Shown: piece by piece, positions 9,668-25,654 of the stretch
How the letters are laid out: every line of letters starts with the position of its first letter
Numbering within the stretch: the first letter of the stretch is position 1
Assembly: GCF_014863545.1 (NCBI RefSeq)
Contig: NZ_CP062260.1
Span: forward strand, 1,364,001-1,428,000
Direction: 5' to 3'
From: Paenibacillus sp. JNUCC32
Lineage (GTDB): Bacteria > Bacillota > Bacilli > Paenibacillales > Paenibacillaceae
DNA length: 64,000 bases
Made by a program: the position numbers and the translations under genes
The notes under the pieces: model-generated
Database searches by the model: none
What the model saw: the letters and a program-made list of their open reading frames with translations, nothing else
Told to the model about the DNA's origin: nothing

Positions 9668-9799
9668 CGATGCCCTCCTCTTTCTGTGTACATATTTAAG
9701 CTATCGCTGAGTTTCAAAACAATTGCATTGATCATGCTTGCCCTCCTCCTTTCGTGAAATTGGTTTTTTTAGATTTTGGTTTTATTGGAGTTGAAAATA

Positions 9800-9985
9800 G
9801 ATATAGGGAGCCCGCGGCGGGCTCCCATTTAACGGATATTCGCTTTACGCGAATACCACCTCACGGATCTGAATCATTGCAATCAGCCTCCTTTCAGCTC
9901 ATTTCGTCGGCCCGACTTCTATATTAAGCCATATGTAGGTGGAAATTTGCAAGAGATAAAACAATATTAATTGTTTTTTACCACA
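9800..9985 (-). ncRNA. Structured tiny-ORF RNA element, copy A
   Basis: Read on the minus strand: box GGTAAAAAACAATTAA (9967-9982), -10-like TAATAT (9921-9926), dyad GTCGG/CCGAC near the predicted RNA start (9906-9916), ribosome binding site AAAGGAGG (9887-9894), a ten-codon ORF, a hairpin over the stop codon (9834-9857; GGTATTCGC pairs with GCGAATATC allowing wobble), and a terminator-like hairpin (9806-9826). The same parts in the same order recur in copies B and C. A transcript of about 110-120 bases is predicted. Function unknown; possibilities are an attenuator leader for the regulator at 9667 or an autonomous short RNA encoding a peptide. Confidence 0.7.
9845..9877 (-). CDS. Ten-codon ORF MIQIREVVFA in element A
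   Basis: ATG start nine bases after AAAGGAGG, the best match to anti-Shine-Dalgarno in this region. The last codons and the TAA stop are in the stem-loop of the overlying hairpin. The other two copies encode MIQNMEVASA, so M-I-Q, E-V and the final Ala are conserved. It is too short for a secretion signal; translation is inferred from the ribosome binding site and its conservation. Confidence 0.6.
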   Translation of the reverse strand: MIQIREVVFA

Positions 9986-10103
9986 ATTCATGGGATGAAT
10001 GATCTGCACCGGCCAGGAATTCCATTCGGAATTTGGATGGTGCGTGACAGGATTATATAATATAGTTACTTCAGAATGCAAAATAAAGAAGGAGCTTGCT
10101 TGT

Positions 10104-11822
10104 ATGTCCACTCACGACCCGCATATCCAGGAGTTAATCACGTTGAAGACGATTGCCGAAACGCTGAACGAATCCAATGAGTTAGCCCCCATGCTGGACG
10201 TTGTTATCGGCAAACTGCTGGAGCTGACCGGACTTACGACCGGCTGGCTGTTCCTGGTGGAAGAGAAGAGAACGCATGAATTCGTAGCGGGCCGGAATCT
10301 GCCGCCCGCTCTGAGACGGGAAGATGACGAACCGATGAGGTGCGGCAGCTGCTGGTGCCTGGAGCGCTATGATGACGGCCGACTGAAAAATGCCGTGAAC
10401 ATTTTGAATTGCAAACGTCTGGATAACGCCGTTCGTTATCAGTGGGGCGACACGGAGGGAATTACCCATCATGCTACCGTTCCGCTGCGTTCCGGCAGCC
10501 GCAGGTTCGGCGTGCTGAATGTGGCCGCACCCGGGAAGCTTCATTTTTCCAAGGAGGAGCTGGCGCTGCTGGAATCGGTAGCCTACCAAATCGGCACCGC
10601 CATCGAGCGCATGCGTCTGTACGCGGCTGAGCAGCGTCGGGCTGATTTGTTCGCCCGGCTAGGAGAATATAGCAGCGCGCTAGGCGCTTATGCATCCCAA
10701 GCGGTGAGCCGGGCCGAATTAACGGAGCAGGTGATGAGTTTGCTCGGCCGTTATTTTGATTGGCCGGTTGCGGCGCTGCTGGAACCGGTGGGCCAGGAAA
10801 TCACGCTGCGTGCGCTATACAGCGGCGGACAGACCACGCTGCCCCATGCCAAATTTCCGCTAGCCGACATGGCTCGGAACGGTCCTGATGCAGTGAAGCG
10901 CTCAGCAGAGCCGGTCGGCGATCCGGATGCGCAGCAACTTGCGGATCAACTGGTGGAGAAAGGATGGATAGCTCCCATTCGTCGAGCCGTTGCGGTACCG
11001 CTTGCGGTTGCTTCGGACTCCTTAACCGGGATGCTTTTGGTGGGCTATGATCAGTATGGAGACCAGCATCGGGCGGACATGGAGGTTATCGAGGCCATAG
11101 CGGAGCATATCGGCATGACGCTTCAGCGCATCCGTTTGGAGGAGAACCGGAGGGAGCTCGCAAGGATGGATGAACGAAATCGCCTGGCCCGGGACCTGCA
11201 CGACTCGGTAAGCCAAACCCTGTTCTCGCTGGTGATGATGTCCAAAGGTGTAGGGGGGATGATTGCCGCTGAACCGGATGGGCAGAAAAGCTTGCTCCAG
11301 GACACGATCCGCGATATCCAGTCATTATCGCAAAGCGCACTAAAGGAAATGCGGGAGCTGATCATGCAGCTTCGCCCGCCCGGACTTGAGGAGGGGCTGA
11401 TGACAGGTCTAAAGCAATACGGCGAACGATTGAAGCTTCATGTGCGTACACATATCACCGGGATGCAGGAGCTGCCGCGGATCGCGGAAGAGGCGTTGTG
11501 GAGGATCGGGCAAGAGGCGCTGAACAATGTGAGCAAGCATGCGGATACGAAGGAAGTAACGGTAGCGTTGTCCTTGCAAAACGATGAAGCGGAGCTTCGG
11601 ATCGAGGATCAAGGGCGCGGGATAACCAAGCAGCGATGGAACGAGCTGACGCGGCATTCCATCGGCCTGTCCAGCATGCGGGAGCGGGCCGAATCGCTCG
11701 GAGGCCAGTTCCGTTTATACAGCGTGCACCGGGAGGGAACCATCATTGAGGTTACGATACCCTTGAAGGCGGTCACAACAGAGAAAGGGGGGATAACCGA
11801 TGATCCGATTGTTAATAGCTGA
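10104..11822 (+). CDS. Sensor histidine kinase with two GAF domains (NarL-type partner)
   Basis: 572 residues from the ATG at 10104, which has AAGAAGGAG upstream; an in-frame ATG at 9999 would extend into the promoter of the opposite-strand element and is rejected. Domains: GAF (about 20-170), which carries a cysteine-rich patch CGSCWCLE that could bind metal or sense redox; a second GAF-like domain (about 200-355); a HisKA_3 dimerisation domain with phospho-acceptor His366 in ARDLHDSVSQ; and an HATPase domain with N-box and G-box (HADTKEV, IEDQGRGI). No membrane segments are seen, so it senses a cytoplasmic signal. It overlaps the response regulator gene by 23 bases. Confidence 0.88.
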   Translation: MSTHDPHIQELITLKTIAETLNESNELAPMLDVVIGKLLELTGLTTGWLFLVEEKRTHEFVAGRNLPPALRREDDEPMRCGSCWCLERYDDGRLKNAVNILNCKRLDNAVRYQWGDTEGITHHATVPLRSGSRRFGVLNVAAPGKLHFSKEELALLESVAYQIGTAIERMRLYAAEQRRADLFARLGEYSSALGAYASQAVSRAELTEQVMSLLGRYFDWPVAALLEPVGQEITLRALYSGGQTTLPHAKFPLADMARNGPDAVKRSAEPVGDPDAQQLADQLVEKGWIAPIRRAVAVPLAVASDSLTGMLLVGYDQYGDQHRADMEVIEAIAEHIGMTLQRIRLEENRRELARMDERNRLARDLHDSVSQTLFSLVMMSKGVGGMIAAEPDGQKSLLQDTIRDIQSLSQSALKEMRELIMQLRPPGLEEGLMTGLKQYGERLKLHVRTHITGMQELPRIAEEALWRIGQEALNNVSKHADTKEVTVALSLQNDEAELRIEDQGRGITKQRWNELTRHSIGLSSMRERAESLGGQFRLYSVHREGTIIEVTIPLKAVTTEKGGITDDPIVNS

Positions 11823-12462
11823 CGATCACGCCATGGTACGGCGGGGCCTCCAGGTTTTTCTGGCGACGCAGCCGGATATCGAAATGGTGGGAGAAGCCGC
11901 GAATGGCGAAGAGACGCTGGAACAGGCCAAACTTTTGCTGCCTGATGTCGTGTTGATGGATTTGAATATGCCTGTATTGAATGGCATCGATACCACGGCA
12001 CGTTTGAAAAAAGAACTGCCTCATATCAAAGTGATCGTACTGACCTCGTTTGTTGATTACGATCATGTTCTGCCTGCGATTCGAGCGGGTGCTCGCGGCT
12101 ATCTCCTGAAGGATATCGAGCCGGAGGAATTGGTAGCCGGGATCCGACGCGTGTTCCAAGGACAGGTCGAATTGCATCCGGATGCTGCCGGCCTGCTCAT
12201 GACGCATGTTACTTCCCCGGCGGGAGAGGATGAGGCCAATGGGTCCAGCCATCAGGAAGCTGCGCAGCTCGATAAGCTTACCCGCCGAGAGCAGGAAGTA
12301 TTGCAGCTGATTGCCTCCGGGATGAATAACAGGGAAATCAGCGAAGCGCTTTATATTACCGAGAAGACGGTGAAAACCCATGTCAGCCACCTGCTGGATA
12401 AGCTGGGGGTTGCCGACCGGACACAGGCTGCCATCTATGCGCTTAAGCATGGAATCGTATAG
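11800..12462 (+). CDS. NarL/FixJ-type response regulator
   Basis: 220 residues: a receiver domain with acidic pair Asp8-Asp9 and phospho-acceptor Asp54 (VVLMDLNMP), then a LuxR-type helix-turn-helix (TRREQEVLQLIASGMNNREIS, with KTVKTHVSH). It overlaps the kinase gene by 23 bases, so the two are a cognate pair made from one message. The target genes are not evident. It is closely similar in layout to LiaR/DegU-type regulators. Confidence 0.92.
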   Translation: MIRLLIADDHAMVRRGLQVFLATQPDIEMVGEAANGEETLEQAKLLLPDVVLMDLNMPVLNGIDTTARLKKELPHIKVIVLTSFVDYDHVLPAIRAGARGYLLKDIEPEELVAGIRRVFQGQVELHPDAAGLLMTHVTSPAGEDEANGSSHQEAAQLDKLTRREQEVLQLIASGMNNREISEALYITEKTVKTHVSHLLDKLGVADRTQAAIYALKHGIV

Positions 12463-12530
12463 GATTAGGGATTTGCTGCTTATGCAATATAACCGTACAT
12501 AATGATCATTTCTCAGACTATAGTCGTAGA

Positions 12531-12560
12531 AGCTCTCAGCCGAAGGCATGAGAGCTTTTG
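12531..12560 (+). terminator. Rho-independent terminator of the two-component operon
   Basis: AGCTCTCA (12531-12538) pairs with TGAGAGCT (12549-12556), followed by TTTTG. Confidence 0.72.
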
Positions 12561-12656
12561 CTCGTAAAATCACTCGATATGTTGACGATTTCATGATGTG
12601 CCTCCACTACAATGTATTTAACAAAACATTCGAATACGAATAAGGGAGGCATTACC

Positions 12657-13217
12657 ATGAAGATCGTAATTATTGCAGGCAGCAATCGCAAAGAAGCGAC
12701 AAGCACCATTTTGGCCAAAGCCTTGGAAGCGCAAATGAACCGGTTGTTCGTCGAAGTGAAGCTGTTTAATTTGTATGAAACGCCGCTCCCGTTCTATTCC
12801 CCGGACGAAATATTCAACCGGCATGAGGGCGTGCGTGAGCTGCAGCGTTTATTAATGGAGGCGGACGGCGTCATTTTGACTACCCCGGAGTATCACGGCG
12901 GGATGAGCGGCGTGTTGAAAAATGCTCTGGATCATTTGGGGCAGATGCATTTCTCGGGCAAACCAGTCTTATCGGTAAGCTCGGCTGGCGGGGCGGTCGG
13001 CGTAAGTTCACTGCAGCAAATGCAGGCCACCATACGCAATTTGCATGGTATTAATAGTCCGGAATGGATTTCCATCGGCGGATCTCAACGGGCCATTTAC
13101 GAATCGGAAGCGGCTGAGGGCACGATCGTGCTGGATTATCGGGCGAAAGAGGCGCTTTCCATCTTTTTGGAGCTGGTTAAGAAGATCAGCAATAAAGTGG
13201 AGGCTGAAATCTCATGA
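12657..13217 (+). CDS. NADPH-dependent FMN reductase family protein
   Basis: 186 residues from the ATG at 12657 (AGGGAGGC upstream). The flavodoxin-like fold is shown by the FMN phosphate loop GSNRKEATS near the N-terminus and the TPEYHGGMSGVLKNALDH motif typical of the FMN_red/ArsH-like family. The likely activity is reduction of quinones, azo compounds or metal ions at the expense of NADPH. Its TGA overlaps the ATG of the next gene (ATGA at 13214), implying coupled translation with the VOC fusion protein. Confidence 0.9.
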   Translation: MKIVIIAGSNRKEATSTILAKALEAQMNRLFVEVKLFNLYETPLPFYSPDEIFNRHEGVRELQRLLMEADGVILTTPEYHGGMSGVLKNALDHLGQMHFSGKPVLSVSSAGGAVGVSSLQQMQATIRNLHGINSPEWISIGGSQRAIYESEAAEGTIVLDYRAKEALSIFLELVKKISNKVEAEIS

Positions 13218-14926
13218 TCACCCATTTCGCCGGATTAACATTAAGGACCGTCTCCATCGAGGGAGTGAAGCAATTCTATCACGGATTGCTTCAATTCCCG
13301 GTCGTCAGAGAAAGCGAGGCCGAAATTGCATTTCAGCCTACACCCGATTTCACGCTTGTATTTGAAGAGGTGTTTGAACCTATAGCCCCTGCCCATATCG
13401 CGTTTGAAGTGGCTTTTTCCCAATTTGATTCCACCGTCCGGAGCCTCGCGGAACAGGTGCCGTTGTTGAAATGGCCGGACGGCAAGGTGGTCGAACCCTT
13501 CGATTCCGGCGTGAACGTATACTTCAGGGATGGGGATGGAAATTTGCTGGAGTTTATCGCCCATCCGGATATAAAGGAAGGGGTCCTGACCCCGAGCGGT
13601 AAATATGGCGTCCTCTATTTGCGGGAAGTGGGACTGCCTGTCGAGGATCCGGTAGCTGCCCGACTGTGGATGCAGCGGACGCTCGGATTCACCATCGCCA
13701 AGGAATCGGAACAATTTGCTTTTGTTATCGGCGGAACGGCCCATGCCGTTGTGGTATCCACGAGGCGCAAATGGATCCCGATCTCGATGTACGCGCTGGC
13801 ACCGACGCTGGAATTAACGTATGGCGTCACCGACGAGCGGTTTATAGACCGGGTCCGCTCGGCCCTGGATCGGCGGATGATCCTATCGGATAACGATGAG
13901 GGACTGCGTTTTAGAATGTACGGCTACAGCATCAGGTTGAAGATAACCAGCTTTCCCAAGGACATTGCAGCCAAGCTGAATTTGCCGAGTGCCGCCGAAG
14001 GGGAGGAGGTGAACCCGGTCATTGACGACCAATATTTGATAGACGGTCTCACGGCTTTGAGCCGCGGCGGCGAAGTCGGTTGGTTTGAAGGGCATGTCGG
14101 CGGAGCGTATTTGGCAGCGTATTACATGCAGAAGGAGCAAGATCTGCCGCAAGATGTGCTTCATGGTTTGGCTGCCAATTGCCGTCATCTGCGCGCTCAG
14201 CATGAAGATTGGTTTGAACCGTATCCATCCGAGCCCGCACAGCCTGAATTGATGGATCAATTGCTGGAAGGGCTTCTACCCAACCTGACAAGCCTGAGCA
14301 CCTCGGGCCACGGCGTGACCCTGGGCGTGCTCGGACTGAAAGCGCTGCGGGAACGTCCGGACTTACTGACACCGTCCATCGTGAGAGGTTTGCTTAAGCT
14401 CATGGACGATGCAGCGAGTGAACATAAGCTTGCAAGGTATTACGGCATTGACGATTATACGCAGCTGGATCTATCGGAAATCTCACTCTCGGAAATACCG
14501 CCTTACCGGGATGCGTCCGATTTGGCATGCCGCGCACTTTCCGAGCTGGATCACGTGCTGCCGGATCAGCATGTGGATGGCCAATATTATTTTTTTGCCG
14601 GTGAGCTTGAGCATGGGATTACCCACGCCCACGCGCTGATTGAGCTGGAACGGCTCGGTTATGCCCAGCTGGCCAAGCTGGGCCAAGGCAATCACCGGCT
14701 CCAAACGAAACTTAACCGTCTCAGACCTCAAGCGCTTATGGCTCAGGGGATCGATGCGCCTGCCAAGGCTTCCATCACGGAATCGGCCTATTGGAGCCGG
14801 CTGTATGAAGATCCGCATGCCATCAAGGTACCTTACGCCGCCATGGCACTGCTGCGGCATGTGCCTGTTGAAAGAAGGGGAGATCTGGAACGCGATGTGT
14901 GCAAGCTGCTTTCCCTAATGAAGTAG
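13214..14926 (+). CDS. Glyoxalase/VOC-domain protein fused to an alpha-helical domain
   Basis: 570 residues. The first 250 or so hold two VOC beta-alpha-beta-beta-beta modules: THFAGLTLRTVSIEGVK and later VNVYFRDGDGNLLEFIAH, the latter with the Glu usually used as a metal ligand. From about residue 275 to the end the protein is predominantly helical, with GWFEGHVGGAYLAAYY, SGHGVTLGVLGLKAL and a GELEHGITHAHALIELE stretch rich in His, which I do not recognise. It is translationally coupled to an FMN reductase, and another FMN reductase follows. A dioxygenase or lyase acting on a small ring compound would fit the family, but the reaction is not assigned. Confidence 0.72.
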   Translation: MITHFAGLTLRTVSIEGVKQFYHGLLQFPVVRESEAEIAFQPTPDFTLVFEEVFEPIAPAHIAFEVAFSQFDSTVRSLAEQVPLLKWPDGKVVEPFDSGVNVYFRDGDGNLLEFIAHPDIKEGVLTPSGKYGVLYLREVGLPVEDPVAARLWMQRTLGFTIAKESEQFAFVIGGTAHAVVVSTRRKWIPISMYALAPTLELTYGVTDERFIDRVRSALDRRMILSDNDEGLRFRMYGYSIRLKITSFPKDIAAKLNLPSAAEGEEVNPVIDDQYLIDGLTALSRGGEVGWFEGHVGGAYLAAYYMQKEQDLPQDVLHGLAANCRHLRAQHEDWFEPYPSEPAQPELMDQLLEGLLPNLTSLSTSGHGVTLGVLGLKALRERPDLLTPSIVRGLLKLMDDAASEHKLARYYGIDDYTQLDLSEISLSEIPPYRDASDLACRALSELDHVLPDQHVDGQYYFFAGELEHGITHAHALIELERLGYAQLAKLGQGNHRLQTKLNRLRPQALMAQGIDAPAKASITESAYWSRLYEDPHAIKVPYAAMALLRHVPVERRGDLERDVCKLLSLMK

Positions 14927-15024
14927 GGGCTGTTTTGACAATGGTAAAATATGGTGATACGCTAAAATAAGTTACCCAATAACTGAATCATGTGTGCTGG
15001 AAAGGCATAGAACTGGAGGATATC

Positions 15025-15567
15025 ATGAACGTCGCAATCGTTGTGGGAAGCATTAGAAAAGAGTCGTACAATCGGAAACTGGCGGAATATTTGAAGCAGC
15101 GCTATTCGGATCAGATCGCCTTTGATATCGTGGATCTTCGCGATCTTCCGTTCTACGATCAAGACACGGAGTTGGACCCTCCTGCGGCCGTCAAGGAATT
15201 CAAGGAGCGGATTGCCGCTTCCGATGCCGTATTGTGGATCACGCCGGAATATAATTATTCCATACCGGGCGTGCTCAAGAATGCGCTGGATTGGTTATCG
15301 CGCGTCGATAAGGTCATGAACGGGAAGCCTTCATGGATCATGGGGGCGTCGATGGGGCAGCTCGGTACGGTTCGCGCCCAAGAGCATCTTCGGGACATTC
15401 TCTTCTCCGTTGGCATCACCTCGCCGCTGCTTCCTAACAATGAAGTTTATATCGGCGCCGTGCACGAGAAGATGGATGAGTCCGGCAAGCTGATCCATGA
15501 ACCGACGATCGGTTTCATCGATATCGTGGTGAACAATTTCATGACGTGGATGAATGCCCGGAAATAA
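15025..15567 (+). CDS. NAD(P)H-dependent FMN reductase family protein
   Basis: 180 residues from the ATG at 15025, with TGGAGG upstream. It has the phosphate loop GSIRKESYNRKLAE and the ITPEYNYSIPGVLKNALDW signature of the FMN reductase/chromate-quinone reductase family. It is the second member of this family within 3 kb but is not a close copy of the one at 12657. A soluble dimeric flavin enzyme protecting against quinone or chromate stress is the usual role. Confidence 0.9.
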   Translation: MNVAIVVGSIRKESYNRKLAEYLKQRYSDQIAFDIVDLRDLPFYDQDTELDPPAAVKEFKERIAASDAVLWITPEYNYSIPGVLKNALDWLSRVDKVMNGKPSWIMGASMGQLGTVRAQEHLRDILFSVGITSPLLPNNEVYIGAVHEKMDESGKLIHEPTIGFIDIVVNNFMTWMNARK

Positions 15568-15581
15568 AACATGAAGTCTGG

Positions 15582-15616
15582 AGCCCTTTGGCAGTTGCCT
15601 GCCGAAGGGCTTTTCC
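15582..15616 (+). terminator. Rho-independent terminator
   Basis: AGCCCTTTGGCAG (15582-15594) pairs with CTGCCGAAGGGCT (15599-15611) with a short loop, then TTTTCC. Confidence 0.88.
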
Positions 15617-15685
15617 TGTATTATTCACCTCGTAACACGATAAACCAAAGCGAATGGATTTGCTTTTGAACGGGGGAGGCTTTGA

Positions 15686-17305
15686 TTGTATACGATTCTT
15701 ATTGTGGACGACGAACCGATCGTAAGGGAAGGGATCCGAAACCGGATTCAGTGGTCGGAGCATGGCTATGAATGCATCGGGGATTGCGAGAACGGCAGAG
15801 ATGCGTTGGAGGCCGTAACCCGCCATCAGCCCGATGTCGTGTTAACGGACATCAACATGCCGTACATGGATGGCTTGGAATTGTCCCGTCATATTACGGA
15901 ACGTTTTCCTAAGACGAAGATCATCATCCTGACCGGGTTCGACGATTTCGAATACGCCCAGCAGGCGGTGAAGCTGCAGGTGACGGATTTTATTTTGAAA
16001 CCGGTTACGGCGGCGGAATTAAGGGACATGCTCGACAAGCTCAAGCTGGAAATGGATGAGGAGCGCGGTCACACCGAGCACTTGAAGAGACTCAAGAAGC
16101 AGTTGAACGAGAGCTTGGTCCTGCTTAGGGAACGTTTTCTGGAACGATTGGCGTCATCGCCGATGAAGCGGTCCGAAATGGAGAGCCGGCTGGCTTATTT
16201 CGATATTCCGCTGCGCGGGCCGCTGTATATCGCCATGGCAGCGGATATGGATGAGCTGCGCTCGGATGAACAGCACGCCGATAATGAACTGCATGCTTTT
16301 GCCTTATACAACATCATGCAGGAGATCCTGGCGGGTGAGCCTGGTGCGGCCGTGTTTCGGTACAAAGAGAATAAGGTCATGACCATTCTGTCGGGCTCCG
16401 ACGAGAAAGATCTGTACGCCCGGGCCCAGGAACTGGCGGAGGACATTCGCGGCTCCACCAAGCAGTTCATGAAATTCACGGTCACGGTTGGCATCGGAAC
16501 GATCTGTCGCGAGCTGCAGGACATACGATATTCCTGCAAGGCCTCGGAGGCCGCCCTGGAGTACCGGCTTCTGATCGGCCGCGATCAGGTGGTCCATATC
16601 ACCGATCTTGAAAAACGCGGGAGCGGTCCTCTCCTGGATGGGATCGAAACGGAGACGGCGCTGGTTTCGGCAATCCGGGCGGGCACAGGCTCAGAGGTGA
16701 AGGCGTGCATCCGGCGGCTGATCAGCGAACTTGGAAGCGCTTCAATTTCAATCGAGCTCTGTTACGTGCGGGTCCTTCGGGTCATGCTTTCCGTGCTTCA
16801 AACCTTGATGGAAATCGGCAGCAATGGGAACGAGCTGATCGGCAAGGAGAAGAGGCTGCTGTCCGATCTGTATTCTTTTCGGTCCTTGGATGAGATCGAG
16901 AGCTGGTTAAACGAGGTATGCGAGCAGGCGTTAAGGGACGTAGCCAAGACCAGAAAGGATATTACACGCTCCCAGATGCTGGAGGCGGTCGATTTCATCC
17001 AGCGGCATTATGAGGATGCGGAGTTATCGATTAAGACCGTGTGCAGCCGGATCTTCATGAGCACGAGTTATTTCAGCGCCTTGTTCAAGTCGCATACCGG
17101 GAAGACCTTCGTCGAATACGTTACGGAAGTCCGCATGGAGAAAGCGAAGGAACTTCTGAAGCATTCCTTGTTAAAAACCTATGAAATTGCGGCGAAAACC
17201 GGCTATCAGGATCCTCAATATTTTAGCGTGCTGTTTAAGAAACATACCGGAGATACCCCGACGGAGTACCGGAATAAAATGGCGTCTGGCGGGGTACAGC
17301 CATGA
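15686..17305 (+). CDS. YesN-type response regulator with AraC output domain
   Basis: 539 residues. The receiver has Asp8-Asp9 and phospho-acceptor Asp55 (VVLTDINMP). A middle region of about 250 residues is typical of YesN regulators, and the C-terminal 100 residues are two AraC helix-turn-helix motifs (SIKTVCSRIFMSTSYFSALF and KTGYQDPQYFSVLFKKHTG). The start is TTG at 15686, chosen because GGGGGAGG precedes it and the sequence then reads YTILIVDDE. It overlaps the kinase gene by four bases (ATGA at 17302). It probably activates the sugar transporter genes at 20207-23859. Confidence 0.93.
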   Translation: MYTILIVDDEPIVREGIRNRIQWSEHGYECIGDCENGRDALEAVTRHQPDVVLTDINMPYMDGLELSRHITERFPKTKIIILTGFDDFEYAQQAVKLQVTDFILKPVTAAELRDMLDKLKLEMDEERGHTEHLKRLKKQLNESLVLLRERFLERLASSPMKRSEMESRLAYFDIPLRGPLYIAMAADMDELRSDEQHADNELHAFALYNIMQEILAGEPGAAVFRYKENKVMTILSGSDEKDLYARAQELAEDIRGSTKQFMKFTVTVGIGTICRELQDIRYSCKASEAALEYRLLIGRDQVVHITDLEKRGSGPLLDGIETETALVSAIRAGTGSEVKACIRRLISELGSASISIELCYVRVLRVMLSVLQTLMEIGSNGNELIGKEKRLLSDLYSFRSLDEIESWLNEVCEQALRDVAKTRKDITRSQMLEAVDFIQRHYEDAELSIKTVCSRIFMSTSYFSALFKSHTGKTFVEYVTEVRMEKAKELLKHSLLKTYEIAAKTGYQDPQYFSVLFKKHTGDTPTEYRNKMASGGVQP

Positions 17306-19098
17306 AGACTCCGCAGCGAATCAAAAGCATTCAGTCCCGCATTGCCAGTTCCTTCGTGATGCTCGTGCTGTTCACGGCGCTGCTGCTTATCTTCATCTCC
17401 TATCGGCTGTCCGAATCGGCTGTTCGCGAAACGGCGGAAAGTTATACCTCCGAGCTGATCAATCAAGTCAATGCGAATATCCAAACCTACATTACAGGCA
17501 TGAAGGACATTTCGCTGGCCGCGATGAACAATCCGAACGTAAGAGAATACCTGGCCTCGGCCGACGAGCTGGAGCCTGCGCAGCTGGCGGTATTAAAGGC
17601 GAAGATATCGGATTATTTTCACTCGATTCGCATTTCGCGCAAAGACATTGCTTCGATCAACATCTTCGGAGCGGGCGGAACCTTCATATCCGATCGGTCC
17701 AACGCGGAGTTAAATCCTTATATTGAAATATCCGATCAGCCCTGGTATCGGCAGGCGAAGGAAAACCAAGGACAGACGGTGATCTCTTCCTCGCATGTAC
17801 AGCCCGTCATTAAGGGAGAGTACCGCTGGGTTGTATCGCTGAGCCGTGAGCTCAGCGGCATGGATTCGACCCAAGGGCTTGGCATCCTGCTAATCGATCT
17901 TAACTTCAAAGTGATTAACGATATGCTCAGCAAGCTCGATCTGGGGAACCGGGGGTATGTGTTCGTTATCGACCGCGAAGGCCGGATTGTTTATCACCCC
18001 CAGCAGCAGCTGCTTTACAGCAATCTGAAAACGGAGAGATTGGACCAGGTGCTGCAGGACAAACATGGAAGTTTTGTCGTGAAGGAGGACGGCGCGAGCC
18101 GGATTTACAGCATTAAGAACACGGATTTCGGCTGGAAAATCGTAGGCGTTTTTTACGAGAATGAGCTGGTGGACAATAAGAAGCAGATGCAGCTGTCTTT
18201 TGCTATAGCGGGATTGTTATGCCTCGTCGTCGGCGTGCTGTTCTCCGTCGTCCTCTCGCGCAATCTGACGCGTCCCATCAAGAAGCTGCAAGAGAAGATG
18301 ATGGAGGTGGAGAAGGGGAATTTCGACATCCGGGTCCCGGTGGGGCATTCCAGGGAAATCTCCGGACTTGCCCGCAGCTTCAACGTGATGGTGCTGAAGA
18401 TTAAGGAATTGATGTATCAAATCGTGGTAGAGCAGGAGATTAAGAGAAAAAGCGAGCTGAATGCCCTGCAAGCCCAAATCAACCCCCATTTTCTCTACAA
18501 TACGCTGGATTCCATCATATGGATGGCCGAGAGCAAGAAGCATGACGAGGTGATTTTGATGACATCGGCTTTAGCCAGGCTGTTTCGGGCTTCGCTCAGC
18601 AAGGGGAAGGAAATGATACCGATTGCGACCGAGGTGGAGCATATAACGAATTATTTGAAAATACAACAGATGCGTTATCAGGACAAAATCACGTTTGCCC
18701 TGGATATCGATCGCGGACTTTACCCGTATCTGACGCTGAAGGTGCTGCTGCAGCCGCTGGTGGAGAATGCCATTTATCATGGCATCAAAAACAAGGAAGG
18801 GCCGGGGACGATCACGATTACGGGGGTGCGTCGAGATACCCGCATCGAATTTCAAGTTAAGGACGACGGCATCGGGATGGATCAGTCCAAGGTGGAGACG
18901 CTGCTCACGTCCAAAGAAGGCACACGATCGAGAAACAGCGTTGGCATTGCGAATGTTCATCAGCGGATACAGTTATATTTTGGAACGGAATATGGTCTTA
19001 GCTATGCAAGCGTGCCCGGATCGGGTACAAGCGTAACGCTGGTCATTCCGGCCGTTCATGCAGATGAGTGGCAGCGTGTGGAGGGGGATGTGCCTTGA
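17302..19098 (+). CDS. YesM-type membrane sensor histidine kinase
   Basis: 598 residues: N-terminal helix (about 14-34), a large extracellular Cache-type sensor region, a second helix (about 295-318), a HAMP linker, the His_kinase domain with phospho-acceptor His396 in AQINPHFLYN, and an HATPase domain (LVENAIYHGIKNK and DDGIGMDQ). It is coupled to the YesN gene by ATGA and to the next gene by TTGA. The following gene encodes a membrane-anchored sugar-binding protein, so this kinase is probably the middle part of a three-component sugar sensor. Confidence 0.93.
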   Translation: MKTPQRIKSIQSRIASSFVMLVLFTALLLIFISYRLSESAVRETAESYTSELINQVNANIQTYITGMKDISLAAMNNPNVREYLASADELEPAQLAVLKAKISDYFHSIRISRKDIASINIFGAGGTFISDRSNAELNPYIEISDQPWYRQAKENQGQTVISSSHVQPVIKGEYRWVVSLSRELSGMDSTQGLGILLIDLNFKVINDMLSKLDLGNRGYVFVIDREGRIVYHPQQQLLYSNLKTERLDQVLQDKHGSFVVKEDGASRIYSIKNTDFGWKIVGVFYENELVDNKKQMQLSFAIAGLLCLVVGVLFSVVLSRNLTRPIKKLQEKMMEVEKGNFDIRVPVGHSREISGLARSFNVMVLKIKELMYQIVVEQEIKRKSELNALQAQINPHFLYNTLDSIIWMAESKKHDEVILMTSALARLFRASLSKGKEMIPIATEVEHITNYLKIQQMRYQDKITFALDIDRGLYPYLTLKVLLQPLVENAIYHGIKNKEGPGTITITGVRRDTRIEFQVKDDGIGMDQSKVETLLTSKEGTRSRNSVGIANVHQRIQLYFGTEYGLSYASVPGSGTSVTLVIPAVHADEWQRVEGDVP

Positions 19099-20075
19099 AG
19101 TCGTACCTGCGAATGCGTTATATGGTACTGCTGCTGATTCCGTTGCTTCTTCTGGGTTATGCCGTTTATCAGTGGTCCAAGGAAGAACCCGGAACCAAGA
19201 AGATCATCGTCGGCGTAAAGGCGCTGGACGAGAATGAATTCTGGCGGGTACTGATTGAAGGGGTGAACACGGCTTCCCGGGAATTCGGCGTTGACGTCTC
19301 GGTGGTAGGACCGTCTCAGGAAATCGAGGTTGACTTGCAGATTCAATTGTTGGAGGAAGCCGTCAAGCAGAAGCCGGATGCGATCGTTTTGGCCGCGGGT
19401 GATTATCATCGCCTGGTTCCCGTAGCAGAGTCGATTCGTAAGGCCGGCATCCCGCTCATTATGATTGATTCGGCCGTGAATGGCGATTACGCGCAGAGCT
19501 TGATCGCGACCGACAATGTGAATGCGGGACAGAAGGCCGGCAAGGAGCTTTCGTCGCGCCTGCCGGAACATGCCAAGGTTGCTATCATCAGTTTCGTGCA
19601 GGGCACCTCGACGCAGATCGAGAGGGAGCAAGGGGTTCGAAGCATTCTGGAGCAGCGCGGCGGCACGGAAATCGTGGGCACCTACTACAGCGAAGGCAAG
19701 GAGGAGAGGGCGTACGAAATCACGAAAAAGCTCCTGCTTGAAAGGCCTGACCTGAATGGAATCGTCGGACTGAATGAGCCTTCTACGGTGGGGGCCGGCA
19801 GAGCGATTCGGGAACTGGGGCTGGTGGGCAAAGTCAAGCTGGTCGGATTCGACAGCTCGGTGAAGGAAGTCAAGCTGCTCGAAGAGGGAGTCTTGCAATC
19901 CACGATCGTTCAGAAGCCCTTCAACATCGGTTATTTGGGCATCAAAACAGCCGTATCCGTTATCGAGGGCGACAGGATGCCCCGGCATATATACACCGAT
20001 TCCGTTATCATCAATAAGGACAATATGTATACCGAGGAAAACCAGAAGCTGCTCTTTCCCTTTGTGGAGGAGTAG
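19095..20075 (+). CDS. Membrane-anchored sugar-binding protein, probable sensor component of the kinase system
   Basis: 326 residues from TTG at 19095, which overlaps the kinase stop (TTGA) and has GGAGGGGG at the right distance; an in-frame GTG at 19068 lies before that ribosome binding site. It has one N-terminal membrane helix (MVLLLIPLLLLGYAVYQW) without a lipobox, then a type-I periplasmic binding fold of the RbsB family (GIPLIMIDSAVNG, GIVGLNEPSTVGAGRA, VKLVGFDSS). The order regulator-kinase-anchored binding protein is that of the XylFII-LytS-YesN type, in which the anchored protein binds sugar and activates the kinase rather than feeding the transporter. The ligand is inferred to be a pentose or related sugar. 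Confidence 0.82.
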   Translation: MKSYLRMRYMVLLLIPLLLLGYAVYQWSKEEPGTKKIIVGVKALDENEFWRVLIEGVNTASREFGVDVSVVGPSQEIEVDLQIQLLEEAVKQKPDAIVLAAGDYHRLVPVAESIRKAGIPLIMIDSAVNGDYAQSLIATDNVNAGQKAGKELSSRLPEHAKVAIISFVQGTSTQIEREQGVRSILEQRGGTEIVGTYYSEGKEERAYEITKKLLLERPDLNGIVGLNEPSTVGAGRAIRELGLVGKVKLVGFDSSVKEVKLLEEGVLQSTIVQKPFNIGYLGIKTAVSVIEGDRMPRHIYTDSVIINKDNMYTEENQKLLFPFVEE

Positions 20076-20206
20076 CTTCTTCTCTTTTGGGTTTCTGCGG
20101 CGGATCATAGATTATTCAACATCGATCAGAGAATATTCCATTCCTTCGCGGGGTAGCGGTTTGTACAATGATTCATAAAAGGTGCCAGCTAGAGAGGTGA
20201 GGGACG

Positions 20207-21706
20207 TTGAGCGAATGGCTGATACAGATGGAAGGAATCATGAAGGAATTTCCGGGCGTGCTTGCATTAAATAACTGCCGGTTCGACCTTCGGGCCGGTG
20301 AAGTCCATGCCCTTATGGGTGAAAACGGTGCGGGCAAGTCAACCCTGATGAAAATCCTGACCGGCGTTTATCAGAAGGATGCAGGAACGATCGAATTCAA
20401 AGGGCAGCCCGTTGAGTTATCGAACCCGAAAGCGGCTCAGGACGCGGGAATCAGCATGATTCATCAGGAGCTGAATCTGGCCCCTGACCTGACGGTCGCC
20501 CAGAATATCTTCATCGGGCGGGAGCCGCGGCGAAAGCTCCGATTGTTTCTGGACGACCGGGCGCTGCACCGGCAGGTGAAGGAACTGTTCGAACGGATGG
20601 GCCTCGACATGGACCCCTCCATCAAGGTTTCGGAATTAACGGTTGCCAAGCAGCAGATGGTGGAGATCGCCAAGGCATTATCCTACAACGCCGATGTGCT
20701 GGTCATGGATGAGCCGACGGCGGCTTTGAGCGAAACGGAGATTGAGGATTTGTTCCGCATCATACGGCAGCTTCGCGAGAGCGGAGTTGGAATCGTTTAC
20801 ATTTCCCACCGAATGGACGAGATCAAACGAATCACGGATCGCATTACAGTGATGCGCGACGGGCAGTACATCGATACGGTATCCACGGCTGAAGTCACGA
20901 CCCAGGACATTATCTCGAAGATGGTCGGTCGGCAGATTTACGAGACCTCGAAGCCGGAGAGGACGGCTGGTGAGCGCGAGACGGTATTGGAGGTTATAGG
21001 ACTGAATCAAGGCAGAAACTTGAAGAATATTAACCTGACTCTGAAAAAGGGAGAAATTCTTGGCATTGCCGGCCTCGTCGGCGCGGGACGGACCGAGCTT
21101 GCCCGGGCCATCTTCGGCGCCGACCGCATCCAATCCGGCGAGATCCGCGTGCACGGCCGCAAGGTAACGATCAAGGGCCCGCACGATGCGGTGCGGCAAG
21201 GGATCGGCTATCTATCCGAGGATCGCAAGCGCTATGGATGCGTCGTCGATCTCGACGTGAAGAGCAATGTGGCTATCGCCTCATACGGCAGCTTCCTCCG
21301 TCCCGGCGGCTGGATGAATACGGCGAAGATTCGCGAGCAGGCGGAGGATATGGTGTCTCGATTGAAGGTCAAAACGCCGCATGTCGATCAGGAGGTCAAG
21401 TTCCTCTCCGGGGGCAATCAGCAGAAGGTCGTCATTGGCAAATGGCTGACGAGGGATTGCGACATCCTGATCTTCGACGAGCCGACGCGAGGAATCGACG
21501 TTGGGGCCAAGAGCGAAATCTACCGATTGCTGAACGATCTTGCAGCACAGGGCAAGTCGATCATCATGATCTCGTCGGAGCTGCCGGAAATTCTTCGGAT
21601 GAGCCACCGGATTCTCGTCATGTGCGAAGGCCGGATTACGGGCGAGCTGGATCATGAAGAGGCGACCCAAGAAAGCATAATGCATCTGGCTACAGCGAGG
21701 ATGTAA
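20207..21706 (+). CDS. Sugar ABC transporter ATPase, RbsA/XylG/MglA type
   Basis: 499 residues with two tandem ATPase domains. The N-terminal one has Walker A GENGAGKST, signature-region VAKQQMVEIAKAL and Walker B VLVMDEPTAAL; the C-terminal one has the characteristic altered Walker A GLVGAGRTEL and signature LSGGNQQKVVIGKWL, as in ribose and xylose importers. The start is TTG at 20207 after AGAGAGGTGAGG. It is followed by a permease and a sugar-binding lipoprotein. The 131-base gap after the sensor gene could carry the promoter controlled by YesN. Confidence 0.93.
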   Translation: MSEWLIQMEGIMKEFPGVLALNNCRFDLRAGEVHALMGENGAGKSTLMKILTGVYQKDAGTIEFKGQPVELSNPKAAQDAGISMIHQELNLAPDLTVAQNIFIGREPRRKLRLFLDDRALHRQVKELFERMGLDMDPSIKVSELTVAKQQMVEIAKALSYNADVLVMDEPTAALSETEIEDLFRIIRQLRESGVGIVYISHRMDEIKRITDRITVMRDGQYIDTVSTAEVTTQDIISKMVGRQIYETSKPERTAGERETVLEVIGLNQGRNLKNINLTLKKGEILGIAGLVGAGRTELARAIFGADRIQSGEIRVHGRKVTIKGPHDAVRQGIGYLSEDRKRYGCVVDLDVKSNVAIASYGSFLRPGGWMNTAKIREQAEDMVSRLKVKTPHVDQEVKFLSGGNQQKVVIGKWLTRDCDILIFDEPTRGIDVGAKSEIYRLLNDLAAQGKSIIMISSELPEILRMSHRILVMCEGRITGELDHEEATQESIMHLATARM

Positions 21707-21749
21707 GACGCCGTCGCCGTCATCTATTCACGTCAGGAGGAACAAGCAG

Positions 21750-22718
21750 ATGAACATTCAAATCAAATCGGGCGCGCTCCAGCAAGTGCTGGCTCTTGCC
21801 AGCTTGGTCGTTCTCGTCCTATTCTTTACGTTCTCGTCCAGCAATTTCTTTCAGTTCTCCAACATCGTGGGCATTCTTCTTTCCACGGCGGTAATCGGCG
21901 TGCTGGCTTTGGGATCCACCTTTGTCATTATTACCGGCGGCATCGACCTGTCCGTCGGGACGGTCATGACGCTGAGCGGCGTTATGACCGGGGTATGCAT
22001 CACCTTCTGGGGATTGCCGGTCCCCGTCGGCATTCTTGGGGGCATCTTGACCGGCGCCCTGTGCGGGCTTCTGTCCGGGACGGCGGTGGCGAAAATGAAG
22101 ATTCCGCCTTTTATCGCAACGCTGGCGATGATGATGATCGCCAAAGGTCTCGCGCTCATCATCTCCGGGGCCAAACCGGTCTATTTCAACGATGCCGAAA
22201 GCTTTGCCGAGGTGTCCCAGGGCAGCGTGCTGGGCTGGCTGGTGCCGGGGCTCGATATTCCCAATGCGGTCGTCATTTTCTTCATTGCGGCGATCCTCGG
22301 CTATCTCATCTTGTCGAAGACCATCCTCGGCCGGTATAACTTTGCGCTGGGCAGCAACGAAGAGGCGACCCGCTTGTCCGGCGTCAACGTGGGCTTCTGG
22401 AAAATCGTGATCTACACCTTAACCGGCGCTTTTACCGGTTTGGCGGGCGTCATGATGGCATCGAGGCTGAACTCGGCCAATCCGGCGCTGGGTGCCGGGT
22501 ATGAACTGGAAGCCATCGCGGCGGTCGTGATCGGGGGAACTTCGCTCAGCGGAGGGAAGGGTACCATTATCGGAACGGTCATCGGGGCGTTGATCATGAG
22601 CGTGCTGACGAACGGATTGCGCATTCTGTCCGTACCCCAGGAATGGCAAACCGTTGTTGTAGGGTTCGTTATTATACTCGCGGTGTATGCGGATATTTTG
22701 CGCAGACGCAAAGCGTAA
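21750..22718 (+). CDS. Sugar ABC transporter permease, RbsC type
   Basis: 322 residues with about eight to ten membrane helices and the family signatures GGIDLSVGTVMTLSG and GTSLSGGKGTIIGTVIGA. It forms the homodimeric membrane channel for the ATPase at 20207. The start follows CAGGAGGAACAAGCAG. It sits 43 bases after the ATPase and 121 bases before the binding protein, consistent with one operon. Confidence 0.93.
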   Translation: MNIQIKSGALQQVLALASLVVLVLFFTFSSSNFFQFSNIVGILLSTAVIGVLALGSTFVIITGGIDLSVGTVMTLSGVMTGVCITFWGLPVPVGILGGILTGALCGLLSGTAVAKMKIPPFIATLAMMMIAKGLALIISGAKPVYFNDAESFAEVSQGSVLGWLVPGLDIPNAVVIFFIAAILGYLILSKTILGRYNFALGSNEEATRLSGVNVGFWKIVIYTLTGAFTGLAGVMMASRLNSANPALGAGYELEAIAAVVIGGTSLSGGKGTIIGTVIGALIMSVLTNGLRILSVPQEWQTVVVGFVIILAVYADILRRRKA

Positions 22719-22839
22719 GCCCTTACTAGTGCTTGCTCCGGAGCTCGGTTGGCCGTAGGTTGGCTTGATCTCGATAGAAGCTTCCATAACGGAAGATCTA
22801 TAGCTGTACCAATATGTCTAAACAAGGGGAGATTGCATT

Positions 22840-23859
22840 ATGAAAAAGCTTTCCGTATTAGCTCTGATTCTTTTGCTGACTGCAAGCATGCTGGCGGCTT
22901 GCGGTTCATCGGGCAAAAACGCTGCCGGAGGTACCGACAGTCCAGGCGAGGGCGGATCCGGATCAGGAGCCGGTTCTCAAGCCGAAGGAGAGATCTACAT
23001 CCCGATCATTTCCAAGGGCTTTCAGCACCAGTTTTGGCAGGCGGTGAAAGCCGGTGCCGAGCAAGCAGGGGAAGAGCTTGGCGTGCGGATTACCTTTGAA
23101 GGTCCGGAGACGGAATCCCAGGTGGATAAGCAGATCGAAATGCTGCAGGCCGCGCTCGACAAGAAACCAAACGCGATCGGCTTTGCCGCATTGGATAGCC
23201 AGGCCTCCATACCTTATCTGAAAAAAGCCCAGGAAAACAACATTCCGGTCATCGCCTTCGATTCGGGCGTGGAAAGCGACATTCCGGTAACGACGGCTTC
23301 AACGGACAATATGGCTGCATCGGCGCTCGCGGCGGACAAAATGGCGGAGCTCATCGGGAATGAAGGCAAAATCGCCATGGTGGTCCATGACCAGACCAGC
23401 GTAACCGGGGTCAGCCGCCGAGACGGCTTCAAGAAGCAGATCGAAGAGAAGTATCCGAATATCGAGATCGTGGACATTCAATATGGCGGCGGGGATCACT
23501 TGAAGTCGACGGACCTGGCCAAAGCGATGATGCAGGCGCATCCGGATTTAAAAGGGATATTCGGCGCGAATGAAGGCTCCGCCGTCGGCGTCATCAATGC
23601 GGTGACGGAGATGAAGAAGGAAGGCCAAATCATCGTGGTCGGATTCGATTCCGGAAAAGCTCAGATCGACGCGATCAAGAACGGAACGATGGCGGGAGCC
23701 ATCACGCAAAATCCGGTCGGCATCGGATATGAGACGGTAAAAGCCGCCGTGGCGGCCATCAAAGGGGAGAAGGTCGAACCGCAGATCGATACGGGGTTCT
23801 ACTGGTACGACAAAAACAATATCGATAGCGACGAAATCAAAGCCGTAATCTATGAATAA
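22840..23859 (+). CDS. Sugar-binding lipoprotein of the ABC transporter, RbsB type
   Basis: 339 residues. A signal peptide ends in lipobox LAAC (Cys at about residue 21), followed by a Gly/Ser-rich linker and a periplasmic-binding fold (IPVIAFDSGVES, GIFGANEGSAVGVINA, IIVVGFDSGKAQ). It delivers the sugar to the RbsA/RbsC-type transporter. It is homologous to the anchored sensor at 19095, a sign that transporter and sensor binding proteins recognise related ligands. Ribose, xylose or an analogue cannot be separated from sequence alone. Confidence 0.92.
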   Translation: MKKLSVLALILLLTASMLAACGSSGKNAAGGTDSPGEGGSGSGAGSQAEGEIYIPIISKGFQHQFWQAVKAGAEQAGEELGVRITFEGPETESQVDKQIEMLQAALDKKPNAIGFAALDSQASIPYLKKAQENNIPVIAFDSGVESDIPVTTASTDNMAASALAADKMAELIGNEGKIAMVVHDQTSVTGVSRRDGFKKQIEEKYPNIEIVDIQYGGGDHLKSTDLAKAMMQAHPDLKGIFGANEGSAVGVINAVTEMKKEGQIIVVGFDSGKAQIDAIKNGTMAGAITQNPVGIGYETVKAAVAAIKGEKVEPQIDTGFYWYDKNNIDSDEIKAVIYE

Positions 23860-23867
23860 ATGAAATG

Positions 23868-24048
23868 AAGGGGAGCCCTGTAGGGGCTCCCCTTAACGCG
23901 GCATCCGCTTACGCAGATGCCACCTCCATATTCTGAATCAATTCGTTCAGCCTCCTTTCCGATCATTTGGTCCAGCCGGACATCTATATTAAACCACGGC
24001 CGGCGGCAGGACTGAAGTGAATAAACAAGCTTAATTGTTTTTTACCAG
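23868..24048 (-). ncRNA. Structured tiny-ORF RNA element, copy B
   Basis: Read on the minus strand: box GGTAAAAAACAATTAA (24031-24046), -10-like TAATAT (23986-23991) in TGGTTTAATAT, dyad GTCC...GGAC (23970-23981), AAAGGAGG (23951-23958), a ten-codon ORF, a nine-bp hairpin GGCATCTGC/GCGGATGCC (one G-U pair) with GUAA loop containing the stop codon (23900-23921), and terminator hairpin GGGGAGCCC/GGGCTCCCC (23870-23892). The terminator is shared with the convergent sugar-binding gene. It lies downstream of the kinase gene at 24080-24628, and no gene follows it on its strand. Confidence 0.72.
23909..23941 (-). CDS. Ten-codon ORF MIQNMEVASA in element B
   Basis: TTG start nine bases after AAAGGAGG, the same spacing as the ATG in copy A. 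The peptide is identical to that of copy C, while the serine codon differs (TCT here, TCC there); in the hairpin both nucleotides pair with the same downstream G. An internal ATG at codon 5 is not preceded by its own ribosome binding site. Translation is inferred. Confidence 0.58.
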   Translation of the reverse strand: MIQNMEVASA

Positions 24049-24079
24049 GAAGTCCGGTCGTGAAGATGCAGGGTATGGG

Positions 24080-24628
24080 TTAATGGATCTTACCCTCATC
24101 CCAAATCCGCTTCCAAATCTCTTGGGCGGTCTCTTGGGGTGTTAAATCGGAAGTATCCAGCCAGAGGCCGATTCTGGGCGTTTCGTCGGTTAACCGCCGG
24201 TTCAGCTCATGAATGCCCCAGACTCCGTAGCCTTTTTTGCCTCGATTCTGTTCCCGGGCACGGATGGTATCCTCGGAAGGATTCAGCACAACGACGAACA
24301 CGGGAACGCCTCTTAACATAACGGTCATTTCTTGCAGCGCCGGGCCGAGAATGACGTCCTGCAGAACGACATGAAAACCGGCCTCGGCATAAGCTTTGGC
24401 AGCGGAGGCGGATAATTTGTAGCGCAAGGCAAGCTGCCGCATAGCTTCGTCGGAAGCATCCGGAAGCATTTCTTCCCTGCCCCTGACCATCATTTTCCGG
24501 AACGAGTCTCCCCGCAAATGGACTCCGCGATCAAACTTCTCGGCCAGCAGCTGGGCTACGGTCGACTTACCTGATGCCATGACGCCGGTGACAACGATAA
24601 CGGCAGGTTGACGTGGATAGGACATCAT
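24080..24628 (-). CDS. Small P-loop kinase (AAA family ATP-binding protein)
   Basis: 182 residues from ATG at 24628 (GGAGGAAAC upstream). Walker A is GVMASGKST near the N-terminus; the acceptor-loop region HLRGDSFRKMM and lid-like REQNRGKKGYG resemble small-molecule kinases of the chloramphenicol phosphotransferase/gluconokinase/adenylylsulfate kinase group. It probably phosphorylates a small molecule in the cytoplasm. The gene lies between tiny-ORF elements C (upstream) and B (downstream), and the 31 bases between the terminator hairpin of C and this start leave little room for a separate promoter, so transcription may come through element C. Confidence 0.75.
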   Translation of the reverse strand: MMSYPRQPAVIVVTGVMASGKSTVAQLLAEKFDRGVHLRGDSFRKMMVRGREEMLPDASDEAMRQLALRYKLSASAAKAYAEAGFHVVLQDVILGPALQEMTVMLRGVPVFVVVLNPSEDTIRAREQNRGKKGYGVWGIHELNRRLTDETPRIGLWLDTSDLTPQETAQEIWKRIWDEGKIH

Positions 24629-24658
24629 GTTTCCTCCGGTTCTGTGGATTTCAAATGA

Positions 24659-24840
24659 AAGGGAGCCCTGGCATGGGGCTCCCCTAAACGCGACACCCGC
24701 TTACGCGGATGCCACCTCCATATTCTGAATCAATTCGTTCAGCCTCCTTTCCGATCATTTTGTCCGGCCTGACAACTATATTAAACCACAGCCGAAGACT
24801 GGACTAAAGTGAGCAAACAGGCTTAATTGTTTTTTACCAG
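24659..24840 (-). ncRNA. Structured tiny-ORF RNA element, copy C
   Basis: Read on the minus strand: box GGTAAAAAACAATTAA (24823-24838), -10-like TAATAT (24778-24783), an imperfect dyad (TGTC...GACA), AAAGGAGG, a ten-codon ORF, a hairpin GGCATCCGC/GCGGGTGTC with GUAA loop (24692-24713), and terminator hairpin GGGAGCCC/GGGCTCCC (24661-24683). Compared with copy B several stem positions change while pairing is kept through G-U or G-C pairs. Its terminator ends about 31 bases before the kinase gene start, which fits a leader or attenuator for that gene. Confidence 0.72.
24701..24733 (-). CDS. Ten-codon ORF MIQNMEVASA in element C
   Basis: TTG start nine bases after AAAGGAGG. It encodes the same peptide as copy B. 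The stop codon falls in the GUAA loop of the hairpin at 24692-24713, so a ribosome reaching the stop would melt the stem. Translation is inferred. Confidence 0.58.
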   Translation of the reverse strand: MIQNMEVASA

Positions 24841-24898
24841 CATCGAGACGAACGATCCGCAAATAAACGAAAACCTGAGAACCCTTGTCCCTCCCTAT

Positions 24899-24968
24899 TA
24901 CTTACTTCCACGTAAGTATCTCACTTATAAGTACGTACTTCCGTAAAGTAAACTGTCTACTCTACAAT
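24899..24968 (+). promoter_or_regulatory. hxlA promoter with repeated HxlR-type boxes
   Basis: Two related boxes, ACTTCCACGTAAGTA (24904-24918) and ACTTCCGTAAAGTA (24937-24950), flank the palindrome ACTTATAAGT. A -10 hexamer TACAAT is at 24963-24968, and the second box covers the -35 position. In Bacillus subtilis HxlR activates hxlAB from tandem sites upstream of the promoter, so these are the likely HxlR sites; the direct role is inferred. Confidence 0.65.
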
Positions 24969-25015
24969 GATCGTGTAGTTATTAACCAATACACTCATAA
25001 GGAGAGATTGACAAT

Positions 25016-25648: not shown

Positions 25649-25654
25649 GTCGCC

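Follow-up and report, generated by a model that had tools for sequence, protein, structure and literature searches.

What are the three small minus-strand copies of one sequence element that lie within a 64,000-nucleotide stretch of the Paenibacillus sp. JNUCC32 genome (contig NZ_CP062260.1, positions 1,364,001–1,428,000; this whole stretch is called the window, and its coordinates are used below), and what might they do? An earlier note had described them as an RNA element with a tiny open reading frame (ORF). Re-reading of the coordinates confirmed, in each of the copies designated A, B, and C, every feature that it had named: a 16-base box, a TAATAT motif, a dyad at the predicted RNA start, the sequence AAAGGAGGCTGA, a ten-codon ORF, and two hairpins. 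The three copies are members of a widespread module that, as read from sequence, combines a gene for a regulator of the Mor/CD3324 family with a predicted micro-mRNA of approximately 110–120 nucleotides (nt). In our preferred reading, to which we assign a probability of roughly 0.45, the regulator activates this micro-mRNA, which would hold a ribosome at its stop codon and yield a product acting beyond the downstream gene; we infer activation, arrest, and action in trans from the features described below. In 5' to 3' order, these features are a dyad operator, an extended -10 promoter, a 5'-end hairpin (H1), a Shine-Dalgarno (SD) sequence, the ten-codon ORF, a hairpin with the stop codon in its loop (H3), and a terminator-like hairpin (H4).

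The distribution of the element was determined with two covariance models, R1, built from nine copies and spanning the -10 region to H3 (threshold E ≤ 0.01), and R2, built from 40 diverse copies including one window copy; the genome counts for both take in the window's own genome and the source genomes of the models. R1 matched 84 of 100 genomes of the genus with 100 matches in total, that is to say, one copy in 73 genomes, two in six, and three in five, the window's genome among them. R2 matched 167 of 295 genomes of the family (12 of 19 genera), 21 of 398 genomes of the class, and 4 of 348 genomes of the phylum, the last being the window's own, two others from the genus, and a single genome outside the class. 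In the whole window genome, R2 recovered the three copies at E-values of 3e-21, 5e-20, and 1e-18 and nothing besides at E ≤ 0.001. A pattern scan of named genomes gave at least 120 matches in at least 119 stretches; among the matches listed, 97 were elements as judged by a stop codon five codons past GAG, and the other 23 were long ORFs, mostly of Paracoccus. The named carriers among these listed matches are Paenibacillus, Oceanobacillus, Virgibacillus, Lentibacillus, Lederbergia, Pseudalkalibacillus, Scopulibacillus, and Alkalihalobacillus. The covariance-model search had been proposed in the earlier note as a check on conservation; copies that retain the ORF and the stem turned out to be abundant in relatives, and its description of a structured, conserved RNA that contains a micro-ORF and has a promoter of its own, regulated in appearance, is supported.

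Three sets of copies were studied further (97 of the 100 R1 genus matches, leaving out one each in genomes G111, G128, and G129; 50 found with R2; and 97 from the scan), giving 244 listed copies, some of them listed twice: 38 of 167 distinct 70-nt cores were common to the first and third sets. The distinct longer cores numbered 175, with locus L185 left out. L185 is a second, decayed-looking site (34 bits) without GAGGTG near an intact element in one genome. One R1 match, L157 (28.4 bits, E 1e-4), was judged false, with SD and ORF absent; therefore, low model scores were never used alone as evidence.

No named family was known to the earlier note, and its judgement held: searched against Rfam 15 over the whole window, the element matched no family at gathering score, and the only match lay elsewhere, a ZMP/ZTP riboswitch at 34995–35074 on the plus strand (58.3 bits). 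Eight other loci, three of them with the element, likewise gave no Rfam family at gathering score. A match to BSnc120 on the strand opposite copy B (23.8 bits against a gathering score of 114, from an E-value search of 23800–25000) was judged to be due to chance. In the titles and abstract openings of the literature searched, a scope outside which subscription papers and preprints fall, no description of such a layout was found.

Directly 3' of copy A, on the same strand, lies the partner regulator gene (9386–9667, 93 amino acids), which the earlier note had overlooked together with the dyad operator. Its product contains a Mor domain (PF08765, 33.2 bits against a cut-off of 24.9) and belongs to the CD3324 family (NF040785, 113.1 bits against a cut-off of 65). 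A CD3324 gene follows the element on the same strand in 82 of the 97 genus copies and in 88 of the 97 scan copies among the matches listed; over the overlapping sets, a hidden Markov model (HMM) found the regulator gene within 1.2–1.7 kb in 213 of the 244 listed copies. The 31 copies without a regulator match include six with less than 400 bases of 3' sequence, 15 genus copies that are all B/C-type copies of the window's clade, and the loci L205 (identical with L350; one of two copies in its genome), L257, and L259. A tree was built from 145 CD3324 rows, 128 of them different, after dereplication within sets and removal of six element-carrying loci from the comparison group. One branch, with support of 100/98, separates the 104 rows linked to the element from the 41 others, in an alignment of only 94 columns that leaves 31 of 125 inner branches open; in this tree, only one clade of the family is tied to the module. 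Of the 16 genus genomes without the element, 13 carry CD3324 genes, and the window's genome has three further paralogs. Run on 52 CD3324 loci, R1 detected one true element (L152, in another family) and the match judged false, L157.

The structure model of the regulator (predicted local distance difference test score 81.9, predicted template modelling score 0.51) places helix-turn-helix (HTH) helices at residues 46–92. A profile search linked the regulator to the Mu C protein (PDB 9l0x) at E 0.002; the hit to Mor had an E-value of 0.6. PADLOC reported nothing for the regulator. Nine neighbouring proteins from six loci revealed no consistent neighbour and no Pfam phage family; those seen include RarA/MgsA past the regulator in two Paenibacillus loci and BioY beside it in one Oceanobacillus, and three of the nine have no family assignment.

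Two leaders of CD3324 genes were observed in passing. At copy A, an overlapping leader ORF (MINAIVLKL.. from 9733–9735 onward, minus strand) runs into the regulator start with the regulator SD inside it, as was also seen by eye at L033, L241, and others; the overlap suggests translational coupling with the regulator. At element-free CD3324 genes, a quite different leader passed a motif test in 40 of 50 loci (L106, L120, L133, L151, L155, L161, and others), and it also occurs in the window's own genome (G000:C1) near 1669322, 1932919, and 3161830. There, GCTCyATGCAAAGCC can pair with TTTGCATrGAGC or with a distal GGCTTTGC just 5' of the SD, and, in loci read by eye, a short upstream ORF crosses the alternative pairing region. 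This leader looks like an attenuator switch, and none of five tested loci matched Rfam.

The box of the earlier note is real and identical in all copies: the exact 16 bases occur three times in the 7.0-Mb genome, each time within a copy, and the exact reversed control does not occur. With two mismatches allowed, 8 genome sites stand against 10 for the reversed control, so only the exact box is informative. It forms the left half of a dyad operator whose centre lies near -50 of an extended -10 promoter. In copy A, the operator AAAACAAT-TAAT-ATTGTTTT (9958–9977, minus strand) overlaps the box (9967–9982), and the boxes of copies B and C, the corresponding left halves, lie at 24823–24838 and 24031–24046 on the minus strand. 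In 86 of 145 distinct upstream sequences, the dyad centre precedes the hexamer by 38–39 bases and so lies at approximately -50 from the start; some copies have a perfect palindrome, such as AAGAACAGTTATAACTGTTCTT at locus L033. With 3 mismatches allowed, an operator of the L033 type had a single site, located at the element, in each of five genomes examined from its own clade, and none in the window's genome, where the operator differs. One exact 16-base box without an element was seen before an ordinary-looking promoter at L013 (genome G054).

Downstream of the operator, the TAATAT motif is present in all three copies, at a distance from the box of 40, 39, and 39 bases and not of 38–39 as had been given. 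The -10 hexamer is better read three bases upstream of it, as TGn followed by nTTAAT. On the minus strand, the extended -10 promoter of copy A is TG-G-CTTAAT (9923–9931), and copies B and C have an extended TTTAAT hexamer at 24780–24785 (TG at 24787–24788) and 23988–23993, respectively. In 129 of 147 model-found copies, TGn precedes a weak hexamer with a mean match to TATAAT of 4.09 of 6; in the remaining 18, TGn is absent and the hexamer is better (5.33 of 6). Such compensation between TGn and hexamer is as expected of a working extended -10 promoter. The -35 TTG is kept in 104 of the 147 copies at a spacing of 16–18.

The ORF follows the SD sequence AAAGGAGG (9887–9894, 24743–24750, and 23951–23958 in copies A, B, and C, all on the minus strand). 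It encodes MIQIREVVFA in copy A (9845–9877) and, from a TTG start, MIQNMEVASA in copies B (24701–24733) and C (23909–23941), again on the minus strand. A start option giving ten codons exists in 167 of the 175 distinct cores; seven of the remaining eight have other in-frame starts (8 to 13 codons), and one lacks a standard start. The stop codon is TAA in 131 cores, TAG in 44, and TGA in none. Within the ORF lies the SD-like GAGGUG (GAGGTG in DNA; 9857–9862, 24713–24718, and 23921–23926 in copies A, B, and C), which in copy A is 9 nt before the stop codon. It is present in 97 of 97 and 49 of 50 model-found copies, 9 nt before the stop in all 146, in sets whose models contain the GAGGTG columns and favour copies that keep it. 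GAGGUG would pair with the anti-SD of 16S rRNA; a search for the 16S 3' end in the window's genome gave no match, and the anti-SD sequence used here is the generally known one. Among 278 close and mutually non-independent pairs, the ratio of nonsynonymous to synonymous change (pN/pS) was 0.13 at codon 9 and 0.05 at codon 10, rough values since pairing within H3 also limits silent changes. The micropeptide proposed in the earlier note is half supported: frame, length, and last two codons are constrained, and residues 3–5 are free.

Outside the class, the element was recognized by eye in 3 of 4 CD3324 loci found in 59 genomes. The three ORFs (MIYNKRWCFA, MIKTKRCYSS, and MINDKRCLSS) have ten codons and keep [S/F][A/S]-stop, with GAGGTG one base nearer the start, in another frame, and 10 nt before the stop. 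This frame shift indicates that what is most conserved is the GAGGUG bases, the length, and the last two residues, not the whole peptide. A programmed frameshift at the stop codon was also considered: reading on in the -1 and +1 frames gives lengths that differ greatly from core to core, and in 74 and 83 of the 175, respectively, the frame is still open at the end of the stretch examined. The shifted frames past codon 10 are not conserved in length, and thus no programmed frameshift product is indicated.

H3 encloses the stop codon at 9834–9857 in copy A, 24690–24715 in copy B, and 23898–23923 in copy C (minus strand). In 40 sequences, it shows two-sided compensatory changes at 6 of 10 pairs, with pairing in 92.3% of cells, and its mean score falls from 23.6 to 17.1 when 3' arms are exchanged between copies (standard deviation of single swaps, 5.9). 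The joint covariation score of H1 and H3 was reached by 0 of 500 shuffles, on an imperfect alignment in which H1 pairs in only 72.4% of cells. H1 (GUCGGGCCGAC at 9906–9916 in copy A; 24762–24773 and 23970–23981 in copies B and C; minus strand) was found in 44 string variants, including a few scan artefacts; most of them keep an intact stem and differ in loop length, which fits an RNA hairpin better than a DNA site. H4 lies at 9806–9826, 24659–24685, and 23868–23894 in copies A, B, and C (minus strand); terminator-like hairpins are indeed present, as had been noted, and their U-tails are weak, only 4 of the first 8 nt being U in all three window copies. Three further pairings were examined and set aside: (i) a start-codon hairpin, H2 (CUGAA/UUCAG), pairs within the window's clade, where it is nearly invariant and hence uninformative, is not evident elsewhere, and is not claimed; (ii) an antiterminator between SD and H4 was dropped, as the H4 3' arm is CUCC-rich in Paenibacillaceae and, by eye, not so in several Bacillaceae copies; (iii) a CACCU with which GAGGUG might pair, in the leader ORF of the regulator, is, by eye, not conserved.

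We propose the following course of events for the preferred reading. A regulator dimer would bind the dyad near -50 and activate the weak extended -10 promoter. The translating ribosome, on reaching the stop codon, would have its anti-SD paired to GAGGUG at an initiation-like spacing and would meet the hairpin, and the constrained C-terminal dipeptide [S/F][A/V] may add to its holding there. Occupancy of the stop codon would then set the lifetime and action of the RNA, and the translated micro-mRNA itself may be the output, a suggestion that rests on complete copies being kept without a downstream gene. Beside the regulator, read-through may provide feedback on regulator expression, most of all in the window's lineage, where there is no good second promoter between the terminator and the regulator.

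Copy C is such a complete copy: no gene follows it on the same strand, and a sugar-binding-protein gene (22840–23859) runs toward it. Copy B is directly followed by a gene for a P-loop kinase (CPT/AAA_33-like, 24080–24628, minus strand), an arrangement also present in 5 relatives (6 genomes). Just past copy B on the other side are hxlA–hxlB genes of the formaldehyde ribulose monophosphate pathway (25016–26218, plus strand). Mean column identity among the B/C copies of the window's clade, 15 in all, is 0.97 from SD to start codon, 0.96 in the ORF, 0.91 from the -10 to H1, 0.87 in the H3 3' arm, 0.86 in the operator, 0.82 in H4, and 0.78 in the promoter spacer, with 0.59 and 0.63 in the flanks.

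Several observations weigh against the preferred reading. The great majority of copies precede a regulator, which suits a role in cis, and six of the 15 B/C copies precede the kinase gene, so they are no pure test of gene-less copies or of trans action. The holding of the ribosome is read from sequence alone; codons 2–5 (pN/pS 2.14) are under no purifying selection and codon 8 (1.11) under little, and two loci outside Bacilli, L366 and L368, lack the usual H3 (GAGG may there pair, by eye, with CCUC before the stop), while a third, L365, has an H3 of the usual form. The H4 U-tails are weak over the copies as a whole (a mean of 3.9 U of 8), and termination may therefore be partial. The best Foldseek match of the regulator model, Mu C, is not significant (E 0.28), the dyad near -50 is off the Mor position of -43.5, and the 18 copies without TGn form one block of related loci, not many independent events of compensation.

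The weak tails and the location of the copies are what a leader acting in cis would predict, in which the micro-ORF senses the state of translation (a drug, release factors, or an amino acid) and sets read-through of H4 into the regulator, gene-less copies being relics or decoys. The earlier note's attenuator class amounts to such a leader, and the kinase gene behind the copy B type in 6 genomes, as well as copy A itself, where the best -10 before the regulator is CATGAT, would suit it. That class fared less well against the remaining evidence, and we consider it unlikely. Copy C is complete and the 15 B/C-type copies are conserved; moreover, a promoter-like site past H4 scored above the mean of its own shuffles in 136 of 166 regulator-linked loci (approximately 83 by chance) and has a -10 of exactly TATAAT in 75 of the 166. 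No conserved mutually exclusive structures were found, by eye and with only the SD–H4 pairing considered, and that complementarity is missing in Bacillaceae copies such as L248 and L284.

Free-standing copies with their own promoter and terminator-like hairpin would equally suit a trans-acting micropeptide, the decapeptide being the effector, for instance a ligand of the regulator or of the ribosome. The constraint on frame, length, and last two residues agrees with this, yet the free variation of residues 3–5 does not, and the E-V at positions 6–7 is better explained by the nucleotides GAGGTG, because the same bases occur in another frame outside Bacilli; a peptide effector is thus quite unlikely. 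A small regulatory RNA that acts by base pairing or protein binding, with translation incidental or only stabilizing, would account for the strong, covarying structure and for the many variants of H1. It is very unlikely all the same, since the ten-codon start in nearly all cores and the constraint on codons 9–10 are unexpected of an untranslated RNA, and in the sole target considered, the leader of the regulator, no conserved complement was seen by eye. Three copies in one window might also recall a mobile or repeated DNA element without a regulatory role, an idea hardly credible for an element that is single-copy in 73 of the 84 matched genus genomes and usually lies before the same regulator. 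Furthermore, copy B had no match in 72,556 plasmid and 50,697 phage records, nor one Virgibacillus copy in the phage records.

The module resembles known systems in part. With the phage Mu Mor/C proteins it shares the Mor domain and the HMM link to Mu C, and, as at the Mu middle promoter Pm, a dyad operator precedes a promoter whose -35 is poor. At Pm, the -35 is replaced by a 16-bp element at -43.5 to which a Mor dimer binds (PMC4390567). The dyad of the module is centred at approximately -50 and a -35 TTG is often kept, so the regulator is like Mor, not placed as Mor; the module is also chromosomal, without phage families among the neighbours sampled. The leader-peptide RNAs ermCL and TnaC act by ribosome arrest, and prfB and dnaX are recoding sites with an internal SD. 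For ermCL, see also PMC10219788. Like ermCL, TnaC, and the topAI upstream ORF, the module has a very short ORF, a strong SD, and hairpins, and the final residues ahead of the presumed point of arrest are constrained. Unlike them, it has complete gene-less copies, an SD-like motif before the stop that is fixed at the nucleotide level, and no conserved alternative pairing that we found. As in prfB and dnaX, an SD-like motif inside the ORF may act on a ribosome near a stop codon or hairpin; the difference is that its spacing is initiation-like and no frameshift product is indicated.

A more far-reaching proposition, which we hold to be doubtful, concerns a module found in two or more classes of Bacillota and undescribed in the literature searched. 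Its dedicated Mor-like activator would have the micro-mRNA promoter as its only recognizable genomic site, and the RNA would be a "stop-codon trap": the internal motif pairing with the anti-SD, the fixed length of ten codons, the C-terminal dipeptide, and, in Bacilli, the hairpin around the stop would jointly park a ribosome at termination, and the parked RNA–ribosome complex, rather than a downstream gene, would be the output. Many bacteria of the Bacillus and Paenibacillus kind carry the RNA of the module, mostly next to the gene of its probable controller, a small DNA-binding protein. What is gained is an RNA family that is conserved and widespread in Bacilli and unmatched in Rfam, and for which a sharp consensus, a named partner gene, and a covariance model are available. 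If the stop-codon trap is true, the module would be a compact natural example in which to study how the dwell time of a ribosome at termination depends on an internal SD-like sequence, on a hairpin, and on the last two residues. It would also place phage-type Mor activators in the chromosomal control of a micro-mRNA.

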